A stretch of DNA of 25,098 bases from a virus: positions 1 to 25,098 of IMG/VR virus record IMGVR_UViG_3300006923_000113, one strand, 5' to 3'. The position numbers and the translations under genes were made by a program. Numbering within the stretch: the first letter of the stretch is position 1; each line of letters starts with the position of its first letter. The notes beneath the pieces are model-generated. The model worked only from the letters and a program-made list of their open reading frames with translations, ran no database searches and had not been told where the DNA came from. This document shows positions 6,430 through 23,217 of this stretch, piece by piece.

Positions 6430-7029
6430 TCACTTATCCATCGGCGTGAAGAACTCTGACTTCACAAAAGTTTGGAAGTTTATGAGTAAAGGCGCTCGAC
6501 GTTCTGAGCAGTATGCGACCGCTTGAGCAATCACAGACGTTAAGGACTCTCCGTCACCAACGTGCGTCTCTCCATGCTTGATGGCGTAGCCTGACGCTGC
6601 TTTTAACACCTCACATGTCAGTTGGTATGACACAGGTGGCTTGGTCGGTGTGACGACCGCGGTTGCTGCCTTCCGCATCTTTTTGTGGTTGTCAACAGCC
6701 TTACGAAGTGCAAGAGGTATTCCGTCTGAGTAACACTCTAAGGGCTTAGCTCCGAGGTTCTTTGCAGCCAGCTTCCACTTTAGTCCATGCCCTTTGCCTA
6801 TGCCAACTTGAGCATGTGCAATCTCATGCCGTATAGTGTCTTCGACTTCTTCGTTGAGGTCTGTGAACACCCAGTCGCTTACTGCAACTGTTTTATCACT
6901 GTAGGTACAAACACCAAGACGGTCTAAGCTTGCAGGCCCAGTCTCAACCATAAAGGTCCAGCCTACTAGGTCAAGACTGTCTAGTAACTCATATGCCAGT
7001 TTTGCCGCTGACTCGTGAGTATGTACCAC
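6430..7029 (-). CDS. SprT-like zinc metallopeptidase domain protein
   Basis: The protein has 199 residues and starts at GTG 7029, which shares a base with the preceding TAG stop (TAGTG) and so is probably coupled. Zinc ligands H68 and H72 lie in HEIAH, with E69 as catalytic base. A third likely ligand, H81, is in the GHGLKW segment that follows HExxH in SprT/Spartan proteins. The N-terminal 60 residues match the usual small alpha/beta lead-in (GWTFMVE, TVAVSDWVF). The C-terminal 100 residues, with a Thr/Pro linker, are not recognised. SprT-type enzymes cut proteins crosslinked to DNA. A role in clearing phage DNA is inferred from the neighbouring SNF2 helicase. Confidence 0.85.
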   Translation of the reverse strand: MVHTHESAAKLAYELLDSLDLVGWTFMVETGPASLDRLGVCTYSDKTVAVSDWVFTDLNEEVEDTIRHEIAHAQVGIGKGHGLKWKLAAKNLGAKPLECYSDGIPLALRKAVDNHKKMRKAATAVVTPTKPPVSYQLTCEVLKAASGYAIKHGETHVGDGESLTSVIAQAVAYCSERRAPLLINFQTFVKSEFFTPMDK

Positions 7030-7178
7030 TAGCTGTACCAGCGTTCGTAGGTCACACAGCAGTGCTTGGCTTTCTTACCGCTGCCACAGGCACAGCGCTG
7101 GTTGCGAGGTTGGCGCACTTTGTAAACCCGCTTATCGACTTTAGGTTTAGGTGGCGTTGCTTCTGTTTCTTCTTCCAT
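7029..7178 (-). CDS. small SEC-C zinc-motif protein
   Basis: The protein has 49 residues. I place the start at ATG 7178 because TGGAGATACTATG gives a clear ribosome site; a longer upstream reading lacks one. The N-terminus is acidic and then Lys/Pro-rich. The C-terminus holds CACGSGKKAKHCC (residues 29-41), a textbook SEC-C zinc motif (CxCxSGxxxxxCC). In bacteria this motif occurs at the end of SecA and in many unrelated proteins as a small protein- or nucleic-acid-contacting module. It is the first gene of the replication operon and is coupled to the SprT-like protease, so it may act as an adaptor for it; that is inference. Confidence 0.85.
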   Translation of the reverse strand: MEEETEATPPKPKVDKRVYKVRQPRNQRCACGSGKKAKHCCVTYERWYS

Positions 7179-7272
7179 AGTATCTCCAGTTAAAGTTAGA
7201 AACGTCTTACACAATGTTATCGGCTTACAATCGCGACGCAACACAGAAAATCTATAAAATTAACTGACGACG

Positions 7273-16205: not shown

Positions 16206-17234
16206 TTAGCTGCGCTTCTGCTTGGCTTTTGCCAATCGAGTTAGGCAGTTGTCTGTTTTAGTGTCAGTCTCTTTGCGTTGGCTAGAGAATGCCAAGACTT
16301 GAGGACCAGTTTTGGAACCTGGAATTAGAGTTTCGTTTTCTTTGAACGCTTCAATAATAACATCAAAGTCATCAACACGATTTGGATCGTTTGAGTTCAG
16401 AGACAGCGAGAGCACTTCTGTGTTATCAATATAGCGTGCTGCAAGCTTCTTACTCACAGCCTCACAAATCTGGCCGTCAGCGACGAGCTGGCTTAGTTCA
16501 AGACCACGTGCCTTCTTTGCCATGTTCAAGATTCCAGCGGGAAGTGCGGGCGCGTCTGGAGCAGGTTGTAGGGATGCTGCCAATTCAGTTTGTTTGACGA
16601 GTCCTTCAGAGAGTGAAGAAAACCGATCCTTAATCGATTCACCGATCATCTCATCAGTATCCGAGTCTGATGGTGCCAAGCCAAGAGCGATGGCAAGTTC
16701 ACGTAACATAGGTTTGTCCTTTGGTTTGGGAACAACGGAGGATGCTGCGATCGTTTGCCACTTTCCTAGATCAGGAACAATGGGATAATCGGTCAGAGCA
16801 ATGTGTGTGATGGGTCTACGATAGACTCCACCTTTAATTGTATTTGGATGTTCTGGTGGAGAGTACAACGAGACTTGAGAGTCCGAGAACCGCTGCTTGG
16901 CTTCTAGGTCCTTAAAGCGGATTGCAGCGAACAACGAGATACGTCCCTTCTCATCAGCGCGTTTAGACAGTCCCATGACTTGTCCTCTGCGAAACGAAGG
17001 AAGTACGTTGTGCTCTTCGGGGAGCGGAACTTCAACACCGTCTTCAGTGAAGCGTGCGAATTGCTCAACCCAGTTGTCAATGTCATCCTCATCAACTTCG
17101 TGCCAAGTGCCCTTTGCGTCTTGGAAGCGGCCAACATAAATCACTTGCTTCTCAGCAAGCAGAGTGTCGTCTTGACCGAAGATGAATGCGGATGAGTCTT
17201 TTGCGTCTAGCGCGAATGCAAATTGTAGTGCCAT
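16206..17234 (-). CDS. prohead protease-scaffold protein, Mu gpI-like
   Basis: The protein has 342 residues and starts at ATG 17234 with GAGG five bases upstream. The N-terminal ~165 residues look like a capsid maturation protease: PLPEEHNVLPSFRRGQVMG (possible catalytic H75), RISLFAAIRF, QVSLYS (possible nucleophile S122 or S125) and ITHIALTDYPIVPD, which matches the last conserved strand of such enzymes. The remaining ~175 residues are helical and charged, as in protease-scaffold fusions. It would template the prohead and then cleave itself out. Its ribosome site lies in a perfect hairpin (17238-17269). Catalytic residues are tentative. Confidence 0.8.
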   Translation of the reverse strand: MALQFAFALDAKDSSAFIFGQDDTLLAEKQVIYVGRFQDAKGTWHEVDEDDIDNWVEQFARFTEDGVEVPLPEEHNVLPSFRRGQVMGLSKRADEKGRISLFAAIRFKDLEAKQRFSDSQVSLYSPPEHPNTIKGGVYRRPITHIALTDYPIVPDLGKWQTIAASSVVPKPKDKPMLRELAIALGLAPSDSDTDEMIGESIKDRFSSLSEGLVKQTELAASLQPAPDAPALPAGILNMAKKARGLELSQLVADGQICEAVSKKLAARYIDNTEVLSLSLNSNDPNRVDDFDVIIEAFKENETLIPGSKTGPQVLAFSSQRKETDTKTDNCLTRLAKAKQKRS

Positions 17235-17718: not shown

Positions 17719-18129
17719 TTAAGCGATTTGAGTGCCTCGTACCCGAAGGTCGATTTCAGCAAGGGTTGTTGTGTTTGCATAGATGACTTCGGTCACCCAA
17801 GCAGTGGAGATAAGATCAGAGAACACTGCCAGCTTACCGGCAGTAGCCGAAACGTAGTAAGTGGTTCCAGCTACCATAGTTGCGCCTGAGACGTACTCCA
17901 AGCTTTCTTGTAGCCCAAAGTACTCATCAGCCAACACTGTATCAAAGCTTATGCCAGCACATGTCGCTGCAGCTTCAGAGGTATTGATCGCTAAGTAGTA
18001 CTTGTCGTCTGCTGTATTAAGGTACACAGCCTCACCAGCGTCTATGGCTTCTCCAGCCTGCTTTGTTCTTGGTCTTTGATTAACAGAGCCGCGTCTGACG
18101 TTTGCGGCGGTTACTGTAAGATCAGCCAT
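17719..18129 (-). CDS. head surface or fibre-type structural protein (DUF2190-like)
   Basis: The protein has 136 residues and starts at ATG 18129 with AGAGGAGAC upstream. It has a beta-rich repeat-like sequence: AGEAIDAGEAVYLNTADDKYYLAI, then EYVSGATMVAGTTYYVSATAGKLAVFSDL and a closing ATTLAEIDLRVRG-like strand. The GATMVAGTTYYVSATAGKLA part is the recurring signature of small phage decoration/capsid-fibre proteins. It lies ahead of the head genes and could be a trimeric surface protein. Family-level assignment is moderate. Confidence 0.75.
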   Translation of the reverse strand: MADLTVTAANVRRGSVNQRPRTKQAGEAIDAGEAVYLNTADDKYYLAINTSEAAATCAGISFDTVLADEYFGLQESLEYVSGATMVAGTTYYVSATAGKLAVFSDLISTAWVTEVIYANTTTLAEIDLRVRGTQIA

Positions 18130-18169: not shown

Positions 18170-18397
18170 TCACGCACGCCCTTTGAAACGGTTGAAGCGG
18201 TTAAACCAGTCGCGTCCTTTGAAACGGTTAAACCATTTGCCTCGTTCAAGCTGGAAGCGGTCAAACTGGAAGCGCTCAGCCTCAACTTCTGGCACTGGTT
18301 CTTCGTAGACTCCAGGTGACGAAGGGGCTGGCCGACACGCTCCGAACGTGAGGACGGCTCCCAAGATTAGTATGTAGGTTACTTCGTATAGTTTCAT
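18170..18397 (-). CDS. small lipoprotein with Phe/Arg-rich repeated tail
   Basis: The protein has 75 residues and starts at ATG 18397, one base shared with the preceding stop (TGATG), with GGAG upstream. A hydrophobic stretch (residues 7-20, YILILGAVLTFGA) runs into C21, a lipobox-like site (F-G-A-C; F at -3 is unusual). After it come Pro/Ser-rich residues 22-40 (RPAPSSPGVYEEPVP), then a cationic aromatic tail: ERFQFDRFQLERG, then GKWFNRFKGRDWFNRFNRFKGRA. The tail is a repeat of FxRFKGR/WFNRF units. It should be anchored in the outer or inner membrane facing the periplasm. Shape and size recall outer-membrane spanins, but no partner is identified. Membrane disruption is an alternative. Confidence 0.75.
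   Translation of the reverse strand: MKLYEVTYILILGAVLTFGACRPAPSSPGVYEEPVPEVEAERFQFDRFQLERGKWFNRFKGRDWFNRFNRFKGRA
18178..18234 (-). repeat. tandem coding repeat in lipoprotein tail
   Basis: Two copies of a roughly 23-base unit encode WFNRF...FKGR. One copy contains a 9-base insertion (NRF duplicated). Nearby RFQFDRFQLERG units are looser relatives. The pattern suggests recent slippage or duplication within the tail. Confidence 0.6.
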
Positions 18398-19089
18398 CAG
18401 CTGACTCCATTAAGTGAGAGTGGTGTGTTGTCAAGAACGCTTTGAAACGCCATTGCAGAAATAAAGATTGATCCCTCACGATTGATCCATGACTCGATTA
18501 CTACTCCAACCATTTTGCCATTACGAATAACACATCCGCCTGACATGCCGCCTTGTACGAATGCTGTTGACTCAACGTAGCAGAAGAAGTCGTCTCGGTA
18601 CACAGGTCTAGACGCAAATCCCTCAACGATTCCATGTCGTTGAACTTCATGTTCGCCCCATGCAAAGCCAGAGATAAAGTGCTTGTCTCCGACTCGAAGC
18701 GGAGCGTAGTCCATTTCGATTGGAGCGATACCAATGTCTTCAGACACGGTCAAACGGACCACGTCCAAGCCTTGGACGATCGGACCAATCTTTAGCTTAA
18801 GCATTCGCGTCCCGATCTGGACTTTATACGAGTAGTCTGGGTTGTCTACAACATGCAAAGCGGTTAGTAACGTCCTAGTGTCGATTACGGTGCAGGATCC
18901 AGCAGGCTCCTCACGTACGTTACCCTCGTAGGTCGGGATGCATCGAAAGATCCTTAACGTCTTCTTAGCGGCGTCCATGTCGACTACGTCTACTGACGGA
19001 ACGAACAACCTCGAGGTTGGGCGAGCGGAAGCAACGTGCAGTACCGAGACAGTGCACAACAGAGCGAGGAGTAGTGAGAGCTTTTTCAT
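18397..19089 (-). CDS. exported trypsin-like serine protease
   Basis: The protein has 230 residues and starts at ATG 19089 behind AAAGGACACTATG. A signal peptide is clear: KK, then a hydrophobic core LSLLLALLCTVSVLHVA, with cleavage near ASA-R (20-23). The catalytic triad of a chymotrypsin fold is visible: H79 in TALHVV, D109 in GLDVVRL, and S183 in GGMSGG. Extra Cys residues occur at 50, 66, 170 and 186. It should act in the periplasm or outside the cell. Phage proteins normally use cytosolic head proteases, and the head protease here is a separate gene (17234). Targets are unknown. It may serve lysis, host-surface change or exclusion of other phages. Confidence 0.9.
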   Translation of the reverse strand: MKKLSLLLALLCTVSVLHVASARPTSRLFVPSVDVVDMDAAKKTLRIFRCIPTYEGNVREEPAGSCTVIDTRTLLTALHVVDNPDYSYKVQIGTRMLKLKIGPIVQGLDVVRLTVSEDIGIAPIEMDYAPLRVGDKHFISGFAWGEHEVQRHGIVEGFASRPVYRDDFFCYVESTAFVQGGMSGGCVIRNGKMVGVVIESWINREGSIFISAMAFQSVLDNTPLSLNGVS

Positions 19090-19101
19090 AGTGTCCTTTC
19101 G

Positions 19102-19998
19102 TTAGATGACCGAGTACCAGTCATCAATTTTGCATGAGGGTATAACGTAGAAGTCGTGATAGTTTCTACAACGGAACGCTTGTTCCATCGTCATCAGTCC
19201 GAATCCTCCGTCACCCCAGCTGGCGTCTTGCGGTCCATAAATATGGCTGCGAGTTGGACCCCAGCTATTACGTAGGTCGGGATGAACGATGTCATCGCCT
19301 CCAACCCATTTCGCAGACTGAAACAAGCTAGCGTGATTGCCAGGTCCCTTGCCAGACTGTATGTATCCGTTACGCAATCGCATTGAAGCCTGTGTGACGT
19401 CCCATGCCATTACGACAGGTAGGTCTAAGGCTAGTGCAGTAGCGATAGTTTGTTTGAACGTATCGTAGTCTTTTGATACTACAAATGGTTCGTGTGTTAT
19501 AAACCGTGATGCTTGCAGGTTAGCAAGTCGCAGGGTTGTTTGTGGCAGCCTACGTGAGTTGTAAGCCTCCTGTGGTATTACTGCAAGGCTTGTTCCGTCC
19601 GGCCCACTTTGCAGTGTTGTTGGCGCTACGCCTTTCTTACTGGCGAAGCGCATTCCATCATCGAGCATTGAGCCGGCGTCTTTGCCTCCGTTAATGTTCA
19701 TGTACAAGTAGTTGTCAGATAGTGGAACGTGCTTAAAGCCTTGCTTCCATCGCGCCTGGTACATCGAGCCTACAGCAGCCGACGCGTTACACTTACCAAC
19801 GCTACCTTGGTTGATCATCCACTTAGCCATTACTTCACGCATAAACTTGTATCTACTCACTCTGTCAGTGAGCAGCCTCTTGATCTGCGCGTCGTCCAGT
19901 AAGTCAATCTCTGGATAGGATCGGAAGCTAACCTTCATAAGTGGAGGCGTAGCTAACAGGCCCGTACCGACTTCAATTCCGTTTGGCAGCTTAAACAT
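19102..19998 (-). CDS. papain-like (C1A family) cysteine protease
   Basis: The protein has 298 residues. I choose ATG 19998; AGGAG lies seven bases upstream and overlaps the end of the previous gene. Papain signatures are in order: Q64 in QGSVGKC gives the oxyanion Gln, C70 is the nucleophile, H222 lies in GNHASLF, and N244 lies in RNSWG. WGDGGFGLMTMEQ matches the family's WGxxGY-M strand. The disulfide Cys before the nucleophile is replaced by V67. There is no signal peptide or pro-domain signature in the first 50 residues. It could process virion or injected proteins inside the cell. C1A proteases are uncommon in phages, and the adjacent portal gene may be its context. Confidence 0.9.
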   Translation of the reverse strand: MFKLPNGIEVGTGLLATPPLMKVSFRSYPEIDLLDDAQIKRLLTDRVSRYKFMREVMAKWMINQGSVGKCNASAAVGSMYQARWKQGFKHVPLSDNYLYMNINGGKDAGSMLDDGMRFASKKGVAPTTLQSGPDGTSLAVIPQEAYNSRRLPQTTLRLANLQASRFITHEPFVVSKDYDTFKQTIATALALDLPVVMAWDVTQASMRLRNGYIQSGKGPGNHASLFQSAKWVGGDDIVHPDLRNSWGPTRSHIYGPQDASWGDGGFGLMTMEQAFRCRNYHDFYVIPSCKIDDWYSVI

Positions 19999-20362
19999 CA
20001 AAGTCTCCTAGAGTTGGGAACGCCATTACTTGTAATACGCTACCGTCCTTCACGACTGCCATGAATGGAACGGTTAATCCCGACGCTCGTGCCTTAGCGA
20101 CTAGTGCTTTGGCTGCGAACTGATCATCGTCGAGAATTGTGAGGCTCTCGTAGCCCCACCAACTAACCGCTTCTCGTGCTCTGCGTATAACCATCTCTTG
20201 CTCCACTGTGGGAGACATGTTTTCGATAACAAACACAACGTGGCTGCCCTCAATAACTGGCTGTTTTGTTGGTGCCTGCAGCTGACTGACTATAGCGCAG
20301 ACGCACACCAGCGCGAGAAGGACCCACGCTAGTGATATATCGGTGTTTAGTATGTTCTTCAT
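19991..20362 (-). CDS. membrane-anchored thioredoxin-fold-like protein
   Basis: The protein has 123 residues. I place the start at ATG 20362: it overlaps the upstream stop as ATGA and has TAGGAC upstream. A longer start at 20431 has no site and would extend into the previous gene. One membrane helix lies at 11-27 (LAWVLLALVCVCAIVSQ). Residues 39-123 look thioredoxin-like: HVVFVIENM strand, ALVAKARASGLTVPFMAVV with a cis-Pro-like VP, and VKDGSVLQVMAFP. There is no CxxC pair, so redox catalysis is unlikely. It may act as a membrane-bound docking or scaffold protein. The fold call is tentative. Confidence 0.65.
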   Translation of the reverse strand: MKNILNTDISLAWVLLALVCVCAIVSQLQAPTKQPVIEGSHVVFVIENMSPTVEQEMVIRRAREAVSWWGYESLTILDDDQFAAKALVAKARASGLTVPFMAVVKDGSVLQVMAFPTLGDFDV

Positions 20363-20640
20363 AATAGTCCTAACCTTTTGCCAATCCACGCAACAACGAC
20401 CGCGACACACAGGATGCCAATGGCAAGCCATATGAGCCCTTTGCCGACGCGCTCTAGCAAGTCGCCTCTAAATATTCGTTCTCTACGCTCCGGCTGGTAG
20501 TCATCGTAGGGGACAACGAATGGGTTACGTCTAAACCGATCACCGAAACCCTCGAGCGACGGTACTGAGTTCGCTGGTATAGATAGCACGGCGACGTACA
20601 TCCCTATCACAAACAGCATTGAAGATAGTATGGGTCTCAT
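20359..20640 (-). CDS. two-helix membrane protein
   Basis: The protein has 93 residues. ATG at 20640 overlaps the portal stop (ATGA), so translation is coupled. A first hydrophobic segment at 4-22 may be a membrane helix or a signal peptide (cut after PANS possible). The middle is basic and polar (GDRFRRNPFVVPYDDYQPERRERIFRG). A second helix lies at 68-86 (GLIWLAIGILCVAVVVAWI) with a short basic tail (GKRLGLL). Size and topology could suit a holin, but nothing else supports that and no endolysin is adjacent. Confidence 0.75.
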   Translation of the reverse strand: MRPILSSMLFVIGMYVAVLSIPANSVPSLEGFGDRFRRNPFVVPYDDYQPERRERIFRGDLLERVGKGLIWLAIGILCVAVVVAWIGKRLGLL

Positions 20641-21941
20641 TCTGTTGGCTCCTTACCTGTCATCTCCTCAACTAGAATCTCGAGGGCCTTGTTAGCTCCG
20701 TCGTGGGTTGGGATGTTCAGCTTGTCTCGTAGCGTTGTCATATTAAGGTTTGGAACTTCTTCAGCGAATCCTCTTGGGTCTTGTAGGATACGTGTGTAGA
20801 GATCCTTCAACATCTGCTGCTGAAAGTCTGCAAGAGGCGCGACAACTACTCGCACTTTGTTCTCGTACAGGCCTTGGCCATAGTTGACGCTAAGGTACTG
20901 ATTGACCGCATGCCAGTTGAGCTGCTCTACTAGGTGCTCGTGTCTTAGCTGAACGTTAACCAATGCGAAGGTTCCGTGCTCTCCAGCTTCCGCCTTAGTG
21001 CCGAATTGGCCTTGCAGGATTGAGCGCTCCGGGAATCCAAAAGCGCGGACTAGCAGGTTGTCAAGGTACATCATTCTATCATTGAAGGGCACTTGAGAGC
21101 CGTACGCGGTGATTAGCTCGATCTCCCACGCATCAATCTGCTTAGCAGACTTTGCGTCCAGTCCAGTGAGCTGGCCAGAGAGCTTGCGAGGGACCGCCAT
21201 GCGACCAGAAGACTCTAAGCTGTCTAGAATCTCGATAGCAATGTCGTAGTTGTCGATCTCTTCGCCGCCTCTTAGTGACGAGCCGATTGGGTAGTGAACG
21301 ATCCAGTGGGCGCCAGCGACTTTTTGGTCGTAACGCTTTGCGGACTCGTTAACTAGTTGCTTATCGTCATAGGTTTGCTCGGCTGCGAACATGTCAGCCT
21401 CACCATAGTGGTACTGTCCTTCAACCCCTGTGTTGAACAGCAGGGAGTACTTGCGGTCAAGCTGAACTTCAGTGGTGGTGTCAACCGTAGCTTGCTTGAA
21501 CCCGTTGAACGAGCCCTCATTAGTGATGCGAATCTCAGTCAGATCCTGCAAGAGCGGTTTGAACCTAACGACAGACTGTTCGCCGTCTTTGTAACCCCAG
21601 ACCTTCTCATAGCCTTGCCATCCCCAATCAATCATACCTGTTAGGCCCGTACGGATTAGGTGTGTACGGTGTAGCTGGATCCAGTCGTTGGTAGCTCTGA
21701 TGACTTCCTCAGGCACGCCGACGTCTCCTTCAACAGACCACGTGGTCATCATCGGAGGAGCGACTGCCGCACCGCGCACGAGCCGTATGGTAGGCTCTCT
21801 GCGCATGGCACGTACCTTTGTGCCCCAGTCTGACACGTTCAGCGTAGAGGTCTGAAACGTTAGCTCATCACTGTACGCTGACGAGTTGTAGAAGTAGAGT
21901 TGCTTGCCTGTTTTAGGCCTTCTAATTTTATCGGTTGCCAA
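20637..21941 (-). CDS. portal protein
   Basis: The protein has 434 residues. The start is a TTG at 21941 inside the terminase gene, with AAGG seven bases upstream; no ATG or GTG lies nearby in frame. It directly follows the large terminase, the usual place. Portal-like features are the hydrophilic N-terminal lead, an Arg/Trp-rich stem (WIQLHRTHLIRTGLTGMIDWG), a helical segment at about 225-300 (YDIAIEILDSLESSGRMAVP) and an Ala/Gln helix near the end (AVNQYLSVNYGQGLYE). It forms the dodecameric ring through which DNA enters and leaves. Confidence 0.87.
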   Translation of the reverse strand: MATDKIRRPKTGKQLYFYNSSAYSDELTFQTSTLNVSDWGTKVRAMRREPTIRLVRGAAVAPPMMTTWSVEGDVGVPEEVIRATNDWIQLHRTHLIRTGLTGMIDWGWQGYEKVWGYKDGEQSVVRFKPLLQDLTEIRITNEGSFNGFKQATVDTTTEVQLDRKYSLLFNTGVEGQYHYGEADMFAAEQTYDDKQLVNESAKRYDQKVAGAHWIVHYPIGSSLRGGEEIDNYDIAIEILDSLESSGRMAVPRKLSGQLTGLDAKSAKQIDAWEIELITAYGSQVPFNDRMMYLDNLLVRAFGFPERSILQGQFGTKAEAGEHGTFALVNVQLRHEHLVEQLNWHAVNQYLSVNYGQGLYENKVRVVVAPLADFQQQMLKDLYTRILQDPRGFAEEVPNLNMTTLRDKLNIPTHDGANKALEILVEEMTGKEPTE

Positions 21942-23217
21942 TGTGCACCTTGCTTACTTGTAAGACCTCTTGCACTACAGGTGGCCATAACGTGTGGATG
22001 ATGTAGCCGAGTGCATCTGAGGAGTGTCCGCGGTCGCCATGATCATCTGCTGACCTTGTTCCAGGCTTATAGCTTCTATTTACCAGATCATCGATAAGAT
22101 GTTGGCAGTTTTCTGAAATATAACATCGGACCTCCCCTAAGGCGTTTTTGAGCAGCGCGTTTGTGGCCGCAAACCTGTCAATTATGCTAGGGTTGGAGTC
22201 AGGGTAGTGGATATCACGATTCTCAAACCTAGAGTCGTTTAAAATTTGCGCGTAGTCTGAGAACGCGGCAGCGGTCTTTCTGGCCCTAGAGGATGCGTCC
22301 CCAAAGAAGTGCCAGCCTGCCGTGTGGTTCTCGTACCGGTGGTTAAGCTCGTTAAGTGCAGCTTGAGTGTTAGAGTTACGCAGGTCGAGCTCGTCGAATA
22401 CGTGTAACGAGTTCCCGTACTTGTGACATATAACCCAGCGCATTGGATCAACGTTAAAGTCGGAGCCTACAATGATAGGCTCGTCTGGATTGTACTTGAT
22501 GTTGCCTTTGATGTTCTTGTCTGACATAGAGTGAAAGATCATGCCTGAGATCGATTCCCAAGATGCTCCGTATTGCTCTGCGTAGTCTCGCTCATCAAGG
22601 TTCTGCTTAGCAAACCTTAGTTGCTCTGCGGTAAGGATCGATTCTGACTGCCATGTGAACGCCGTCACGTCCGGATCAGTCTGGGCTGAGTCGTAGAACT
22701 TCTTGAACTCTTGAGCGCCAGGGCCGAATCTTTTTGGTACGCCAATCCTCCAACACCACGCTTCGCGGTGAGACAGCGCCGGTAATACACTAATATCGAA
22801 TGTCTTTGGTTTCTGGTCACTAGACTCATCAATAACGCACCCGTCCCATTGTTCACCTTCAATACGCTGAGGCTTGTCCATTCCTACAACATAAAGCTTA
22901 GTGTCAAAGATAGTTGCGATTGATAGTTCTGTTTCCGAGATTCCGTCCTTTCGAATCCACTCCTTAGGCACCAACGCTTTAATGTGTTCCCATGCTACAC
23001 GTTTCGCTTGGTCACGGGTTGGTAGAGCGTAGAAGTAAATTGGATTGTGCGTATAGTGCTTCGGTTTGTAGGACAAGAACCTAACGATGCGCCGTCTGGC
23101 GAGTTCAGTTTTACCTGAACCACGACCAGCGACTACCGCAGCGAATCTTGTCTTGCAGTTCCAAAGCTCGTTCTGCACTGGATGGTACCTTAAGGTGGTC
23201 CACTTGTCAGTTAGCAT
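21928..23217 (-). CDS. terminase large subunit (TerL)
   Basis: The protein has 429 residues and starts at ATG 23217, one base after the previous stop. The ATPase has Walker A GRGSGKTE at 31-38 and Walker B CVIDES at 127-132 (E131 is the catalytic carboxylate). The C-terminal RNase H-like nuclease shows D253 in GSDFN, D307 in FFGDAS and D401 in HSSDALGY. It cuts concatemeric phage DNA and pumps it into the prohead through the portal. No small subunit is recognised next to it, although two short unassigned genes lie upstream. Confidence 0.95.
   Translation of the reverse strand: MLTDKWTTLRYHPVQNELWNCKTRFAAVVAGRGSGKTELARRRIVRFLSYKPKHYTHNPIYFYALPTRDQAKRVAWEHIKALVPKEWIRKDGISETELSIATIFDTKLYVVGMDKPQRIEGEQWDGCVIDESSDQKPKTFDISVLPALSHREAWCWRIGVPKRFGPGAQEFKKFYDSAQTDPDVTAFTWQSESILTAEQLRFAKQNLDERDYAEQYGASWESISGMIFHSMSDKNIKGNIKYNPDEPIIVGSDFNVDPMRWVICHKYGNSLHVFDELDLRNSNTQAALNELNHRYENHTAGWHFFGDASSRARKTAAAFSDYAQILNDSRFENRDIHYPDSNPSIIDRFAATNALLKNALGEVRCYISENCQHLIDDLVNRSYKPGTRSADDHGDRGHSSDALGYIIHTLWPPVVQEVLQVSKVHIGNR

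Follow-up and report, generated by a model that had tools for sequence, protein, structure and literature searches.

Which function could bring two predicted proteases, two membrane-directed proteins and a putative lipoprotein together among the head genes of a phage? The question is raised by five open reading frames (ORFs) on the minus strand of an IMG/VR virus record of 25,098 bases (hereafter the window, i.e. the whole stretch of DNA that was analysed), which are flanked by a portal gene on one side and by the gene for a cement-like protein on the other (table 1).

Table 1. Features of the block and its two flanks in the window (aa, amino acids).
Feature	Coordinates	Strand	Length	Characteristics
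portal	20637-21941			weak Portal_Mu match
gene 1	20359-20640	minus	93 aa	hydrophobic segments 1-23 and 61-79
gene 2	19991-20362	minus	123 aa	one N-terminal hydrophobic segment (3-32); thioredoxin fold (modelled)
gene 3	19102-19998 (ATG; or TTG at 20001)	minus	~298 aa	papain-like (predicted); no hydrophobic segment
gene 4	18397-19089	minus	230 aa	signal-like N-terminus; trypsin-like (predicted)
gene 5	18170-18397	minus	75 aa	lipobox-like LTFGAC (hydrophobicity scan)
cement-like protein	17719-18129			other flank of the five-ORF block

A five-gene block and its conserved core

The block is present as a first-pass annotation of this DNA had described it (18170-20640, minus strand). The same annotation had all of its genes coupled by overlaps, which holds for the ATGA junctions read from the sequence at portal/gene 1 and gene 1/gene 2, for an overlap of 8 bases between genes 2 and 3 (if gene 3 starts at its ATG) and for the TGATG junction of genes 4 and 5, but not for genes 3 and 4, which are separated by a gap of 12 bases. 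The five ORFs recur, with 99-100% protein identity, in a near-identical contig (L001), and this contig alone was returned when relatives of the window's lineage were sought with the portal, the terminase and gene 4; the relatives obtained with the window capsid were distant phages. Elsewhere in the window, two ORFs at 6430-7244 are the likely carriers of a SprT-like protein and of a SEC-C motif protein (Pfam).

Alignment-based scans of IMG/VR recovered 31 contigs containing a relative of gene 3, L001 among them; the representatives compared share 37-50% identity with the window protein. In the window, as in 30 of the 31 contigs, a homologue of gene 2 lies directly upstream of the papain gene and overlaps it; the last one (L054) begins inside the papain gene, so that its upstream flank is missing. 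Every papain relative with an intact flank is adjoined by such a homologue. The pair is under purifying selection, with dN/dS values (Nei-Gojobori, where synonymous sites were unsaturated) of 0.07-0.12 for the papain gene and 0.13-0.24 for its partner. As this pair is found under purifying selection in about 30 diverged contigs, the block appears to be more than a product of chance. In the relative that was examined most closely (L002), the portal belongs to Phage_portal_3 and the capsid to DUF6260, unlike the Portal_Mu-like portal and Phage_cap_E capsid of the window; the pair has therefore either been transferred between distant phages or been retained in them. An in-frame TGA flagged in three relatives was dismissed, being the terminal stop.

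The idea that the five genes form one system fared less well. Across relatives, linkage is seen for genes 2 and 3 only, and the five-gene unit is rejected on this ground; the conserved unit consists of these two genes alone. The order expected in related phages is thus kept for genes 2 and 3, but the other three are scattered, replaced or without relatives: the trypsin-like gene lies elsewhere, a CXXC gene takes its place beside the papain gene, and no relatives of genes 1 and 5 were detected beyond L001. Scattering or independent replacement of the genes, which the first-pass annotation had itself set against its proposal, is accordingly observed in part.

No match to the pair was found in 50,697 phage records or in 72,556 plasmids, and two short-pattern scans of 84,980 species genomes, by which distant relatives would be missed, did not find relatives either. 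An alignment scan with the gene 2 protein returned contigs that were already known and none further, and no paper describing the pair was found in the literature.

A papain-family protease coupled to a pseudo-thioredoxin

Taken alone, the gene 3 protein gives a sub-threshold match to Peptidase_C1 (Pfam, E 0.078). A profile built from 11 of its relatives matches xylellain (3ois) at 3.7e-6, the best PDB match by sequence, and this alignment pairs the papain active-site glutamine, cysteine, histidine and asparagine of the gene 3 family. These four residues (Gln64, Cys70, His222 and Asn244 in gene 3, numbered from the ATG at 19998) are invariant, and in the same order, in 15 papain-like sequences. 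The papain assignment is secured by the profile match together with this invariance. Gene 3 is thus predicted to encode a papain-family (C1) cysteine protease, combining the active-site residues with a modelled papain fold, as the top Foldseek match of its AlphaFold model is again xylellain (E 1.4e-11).

The protein shares its fold and its Gln/Cys/His/Asn motifs with xylellain and the papain-family (C1) proteases, and differs from xylellain in its identity of only approximately 20%, in being encoded by a phage and in its coupling to the membrane-anchored gene 2 product. Papain-type enzymes are already known in phages, as C1A peptidases of uncultured Caudovirales are held in the viral structure library; in a comparison made by structure alone, leaving gene neighbourhood aside, these have the same fold over nearly the full length (e.g. 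A0A6J5QDM8: 26% identity, TM-score 0.75). Some structural neighbours in this library are named lysins or peptidoglycan-binding.

The gene 2 protein was modelled by AlphaFold with a pLDDT of 79.5, and its Foldseek matches are thioredoxins, with TM-scores of approximately 0.4-0.5. The CXXC redox motif is absent both from the window protein and from its aligned relatives, and we therefore refer to it as a pseudo-thioredoxin, that is, on the basis of its model, a membrane-anchored thioredoxin fold without CXXC. Lacking this motif, it is predicted to be unable to perform thiol redox chemistry.

Variable companions of the pair

The usual order in relatives runs from the capsid gene through small membrane proteins, the pseudo-thioredoxin and the papain-like protease to a CXXC-containing lipoprotein or membrane-anchored protein, followed by more head and tail genes. 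The gene after papain in these phages thus encodes a protein whose C-terminal part is thioredoxin-like, a likeness that rests on the motif and on reading of the sequence, with a weak profile hint (phrog_22, E 0.14), and not a trypsin. The window block has an exported trypsin-like protease and a short lipoprotein at this place, and contains no CXXC gene. In three relatives (L004:8876-9355, L020:8876-9352 and L053:8885-9364), the CXXC protein carries a dense cysteine stretch (CPCEDCTCKDCKC) before the thioredoxin-like part, which is reminiscent of a metal-binding motif. At two other loci (L018:5353-6651 and L022:2422-3666), the small membrane genes of the cassette are immediately preceded by a tail-fibre-like gene of the RGTTSAW repeat type.

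Gene 4 matches Pfam Trypsin_2 (3e-11), with a predicted triad of His79, Asp109 and Ser183, and a hydrophobicity scan finds a signal-like segment at its N-terminus; it is therefore predicted to encode an exported trypsin-like serine protease. An exported trypsin-like protease is also present in four of the eight large relatives (52-70 kb), at a large distance from the pair (in G002, at 58345-59010, against 21836-22741 for papain); its relationship to gene 4 is weak but detectable (E 2e-4), and its catalytic triad is conserved. The trypsin-like protease therefore accompanies the pair repeatedly without belonging to the unit as a fixed component. Both gene 4 (6e-6) and the G002 protein (8e-6) match the phage proteases of phrog_9683; a gene of this type is unlinked to papain in the relatives and directly downstream of it in the window. 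The papain-like, trypsin-like and thioredoxin-fold assignments of the first-pass annotation are hence borne out, the first through relatives and xylellain, the second through Trypsin_2 and the third through AlphaFold and Foldseek.

The two remaining genes are smaller. Gene 1, with its two hydrophobic segments, is holin-like by size and topology, and no credible family match was found for it among Pfam and PHROG profiles. Gene 5 has prolines after the lipobox cysteine and the size of an outer-membrane spanin, and Pfam, PHROG and defence/NCBIfam profiles likewise gave no credible match. Downstream of the cassette in relatives, two small proteins (L009:10040-10318 and L004:9333-9689) combine a hydrophobic segment at the N-terminus with a tail that is coiled-coil-like; they are candidate spanins or holins, for which no convincing family match was found.

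A possible role in lysis

The most likely role of the cassette is envelope-directed, and with modest confidence we place lysis ahead of entry and exclusion. The block was first described as a set of envelope-directed proteins, which fits the membrane- or export-directed products but not the gene 3 papain, predicted to have no signal peptide. Our best reading is that of a lysis-type cassette with a papain-family protease in the position of the endolysin; it is a tentative one, to which we attach somewhat less than an even chance. Among the three functions initially put forward (processing, lysis or exclusion), lysis is thus the best supported, though by indirect evidence and not as the work of a single five-gene system.

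Starting from what was computed (the gene pair, the folds, the conserved catalytic residues, the purifying selection and the recurrence across unrelated capsids), we infer topology, activity, timing and the role in lysis as follows. The core would be an inner-membrane protein with a redox-dead thioredoxin fold, predicted to face the periplasm, translationally coupled to a papain-family protease. The genes of this pair lie in the late (head) operon, where small membrane proteins and an accessory are encoded as well; the accessory is a thioredoxin-like CXXC protein (lipoprotein or membrane protein) in relatives, and in the window the exported trypsin-like protease with the short lipoprotein. Made late and in the cytoplasm, without a signal, the papain would reach the envelope once the small membrane proteins had permeabilized the inner membrane; the anchored pseudo-thioredoxin may position or control it, and its cleavage of envelope protein or peptide targets would lead to phage exit. 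The CXXC partner may keep the thiol of the protease, or its target, reduced, a step that the exported serine protease might replace or supplement in the window.

The arrangement resembles a Gram-negative lysis cassette at the position known from P2, whose holin, endolysin and spanin genes lie between head and tail genes (PMC3091744). With a P2-type lysis cassette (holin, endolysin, antiholin and Rz/Rz1 spanins) the block shares its position, the small membrane proteins and a soluble enzyme, as well as, in gene 5, a short proline-containing lipoprotein (PMC3091744). It differs in that no peptidoglycan hydrolase was recognized, that the enzyme is of the papain family, and that the small proteins, holin- or spanin-like in size, topology and position, have no holin or spanin family match, which argues against the lysis reading. 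Cysteine-dependent lysins exist: the pseudomurein endoisopeptidases PeiW and PeiP are phage wall-lytic enzymes that, as predicted for gene 3, depend on a cysteine and that require a reductant, and differ in belonging to another family, with a Cys/His/Asp triad, and in their archaeal hosts (PMC4592898). For the N5 domains of mycobacteriophage LysA, the matches were placed by the authors in the large papain family (PMC3314691).

Six-frame searches of the window and ten relatives gave no credible match to Amidase_2, Phage_lysozyme, CHAP, NLPC_P60, Peptidase_M23, SLT, Peptidase_M15_4 or Amidase_3, and no peptidoglycan hydrolase is listed by Pfam among 66 proteins from G002 and 22 from the window. 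G008, for which the Pfam scan gives 25 of 52 families, was left out of this argument. A CHAP match in G003 (E 0.003, below the cut-off, in a frame of 84 aa on the strand opposite to the late operon) was judged to be due to chance. The lack of credible matches in the window and the ten relatives is suggestive only. These records may be incomplete, and many of their genes are of undefined function, so that a hidden lysin may be present in these contigs, which would weaken the case for lysis. As no recognizable peptidoglycan hydrolase was found, the block, which may work like a lysis cassette, is not classed as a known one. A further point against lysis is that enzymes of the xylellain type cut protein. 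Since the closest characterized enzymes of papain-like fold do so, not peptidoglycan but a protein of the envelope could be the target.

Alternative roles

A location beside head genes would suit a virion protein equally well. In this case the papain-like enzyme, and perhaps the trypsin-like one, would be carried in the virion and, as the genome is delivered, cut a protein barrier such as an S-layer or a protein wall; in its favour, phages whose capsids are unrelated have these genes placed among their head genes. However, a membrane segment in the conserved partner and neighbouring genes for membrane proteins or lipoproteins would be unusual for components of a virion, and we consider such an entry function unlikely.

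Remodelling of the envelope or superinfection exclusion, in which proteins placed in the envelope during infection would cleave or modify receptors or further envelope proteins of the host, appears no more probable than entry and no less so. The signal-like N-terminus of gene 4, the lipobox of gene 5 and the exported trypsin-like protease encoded elsewhere in the genome of relatives all agree with it, but the core papain has no signal and sits in a late operon. Moreover, no described defence protein or system was matched over its length (PADLOC, NCBIfam); the PADLOC, NCBIfam and Avs1b matches of gene 4 were rejected, as they extend only over the generic protease domain that it has in common with longer proteins.

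A more specific form of the lysis reading would replace peptidoglycan hydrolysis by proteolysis and disulfide reduction: the papain-family protease, the anchored pseudo-thioredoxin and the CXXC thioredoxin-like lipoprotein (or the exported serine protease) would together disassemble a disulfide-bonded protein wall. This analogy is based on the disulfide-rich envelopes of planctomycetes (PMC3035269, PMC2754498). We regard it as improbable, and a planctomycete host is a guess. Later work has found peptidoglycan in planctomycetes.

Processing of head or other structural proteins, in which the papain-like enzyme would mature a virion protein, could explain why its gene lies near the portal gene in the window, or between capsid and connector genes in relatives. 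Yet neither gene 3 nor gene 4 matches a prohead protease family (Pfam, PHROG profiles), the relatives possess a separate DUF2213 gene upstream, and the membrane-anchored partner is universal. DUF2213 is a head-protease family. Head maturation is thus disfavoured and very unlikely, in agreement with the initial view that these proteases have another task. The separate head protease gene proposed for the window itself is only weakly backed, by a phrog_328 match of the gene at 16206-17234 (E 0.018). The least plausible reading, which we hardly credit, is that of auxiliary redox genes protecting the infected cell, as proposed for thioredoxins and glutaredoxins of freshwater phages against oxidative stress (PMC6802176), for the universal partner has no CXXC and is coupled to a protease, and the window block has no CXXC gene.

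Hosts and implications

The two pattern scans of species genomes, when used to seek a host, found no relative, and the window tail-gene query found no match. Matches to the window portal came from mixed hosts, as did those to the terminase, with flavobacterial phages near the top. Two tRNA genes were detected; tRNAs and counts of ribosome-binding sites were uninformative on the host.

A coupled protease/pseudo-thioredoxin pair is thus carried by about 30 environmental contigs and was not found in the cultured phage records searched. If the cassette is a lysis system, it would be one of few in which the endolysin role falls to a papain-family protease, and it would indicate hosts with a protein-dependent envelope. 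Should it instead serve in entry or in exclusion, it would still offer a first handle on the way in which these uncultured phages deal with the envelope.

Two minor features were noticed in the relatives. Short tandem repeats with periods of 37 and 38 bases occur at the start of G001 (L055:1-150) and of G007 (L082:1-90), and G002 contains several similar HNH-endonuclease-like genes, possibly mobile (51307-52068, 54865-55653 and 63054-63884; loci L061 and L062).
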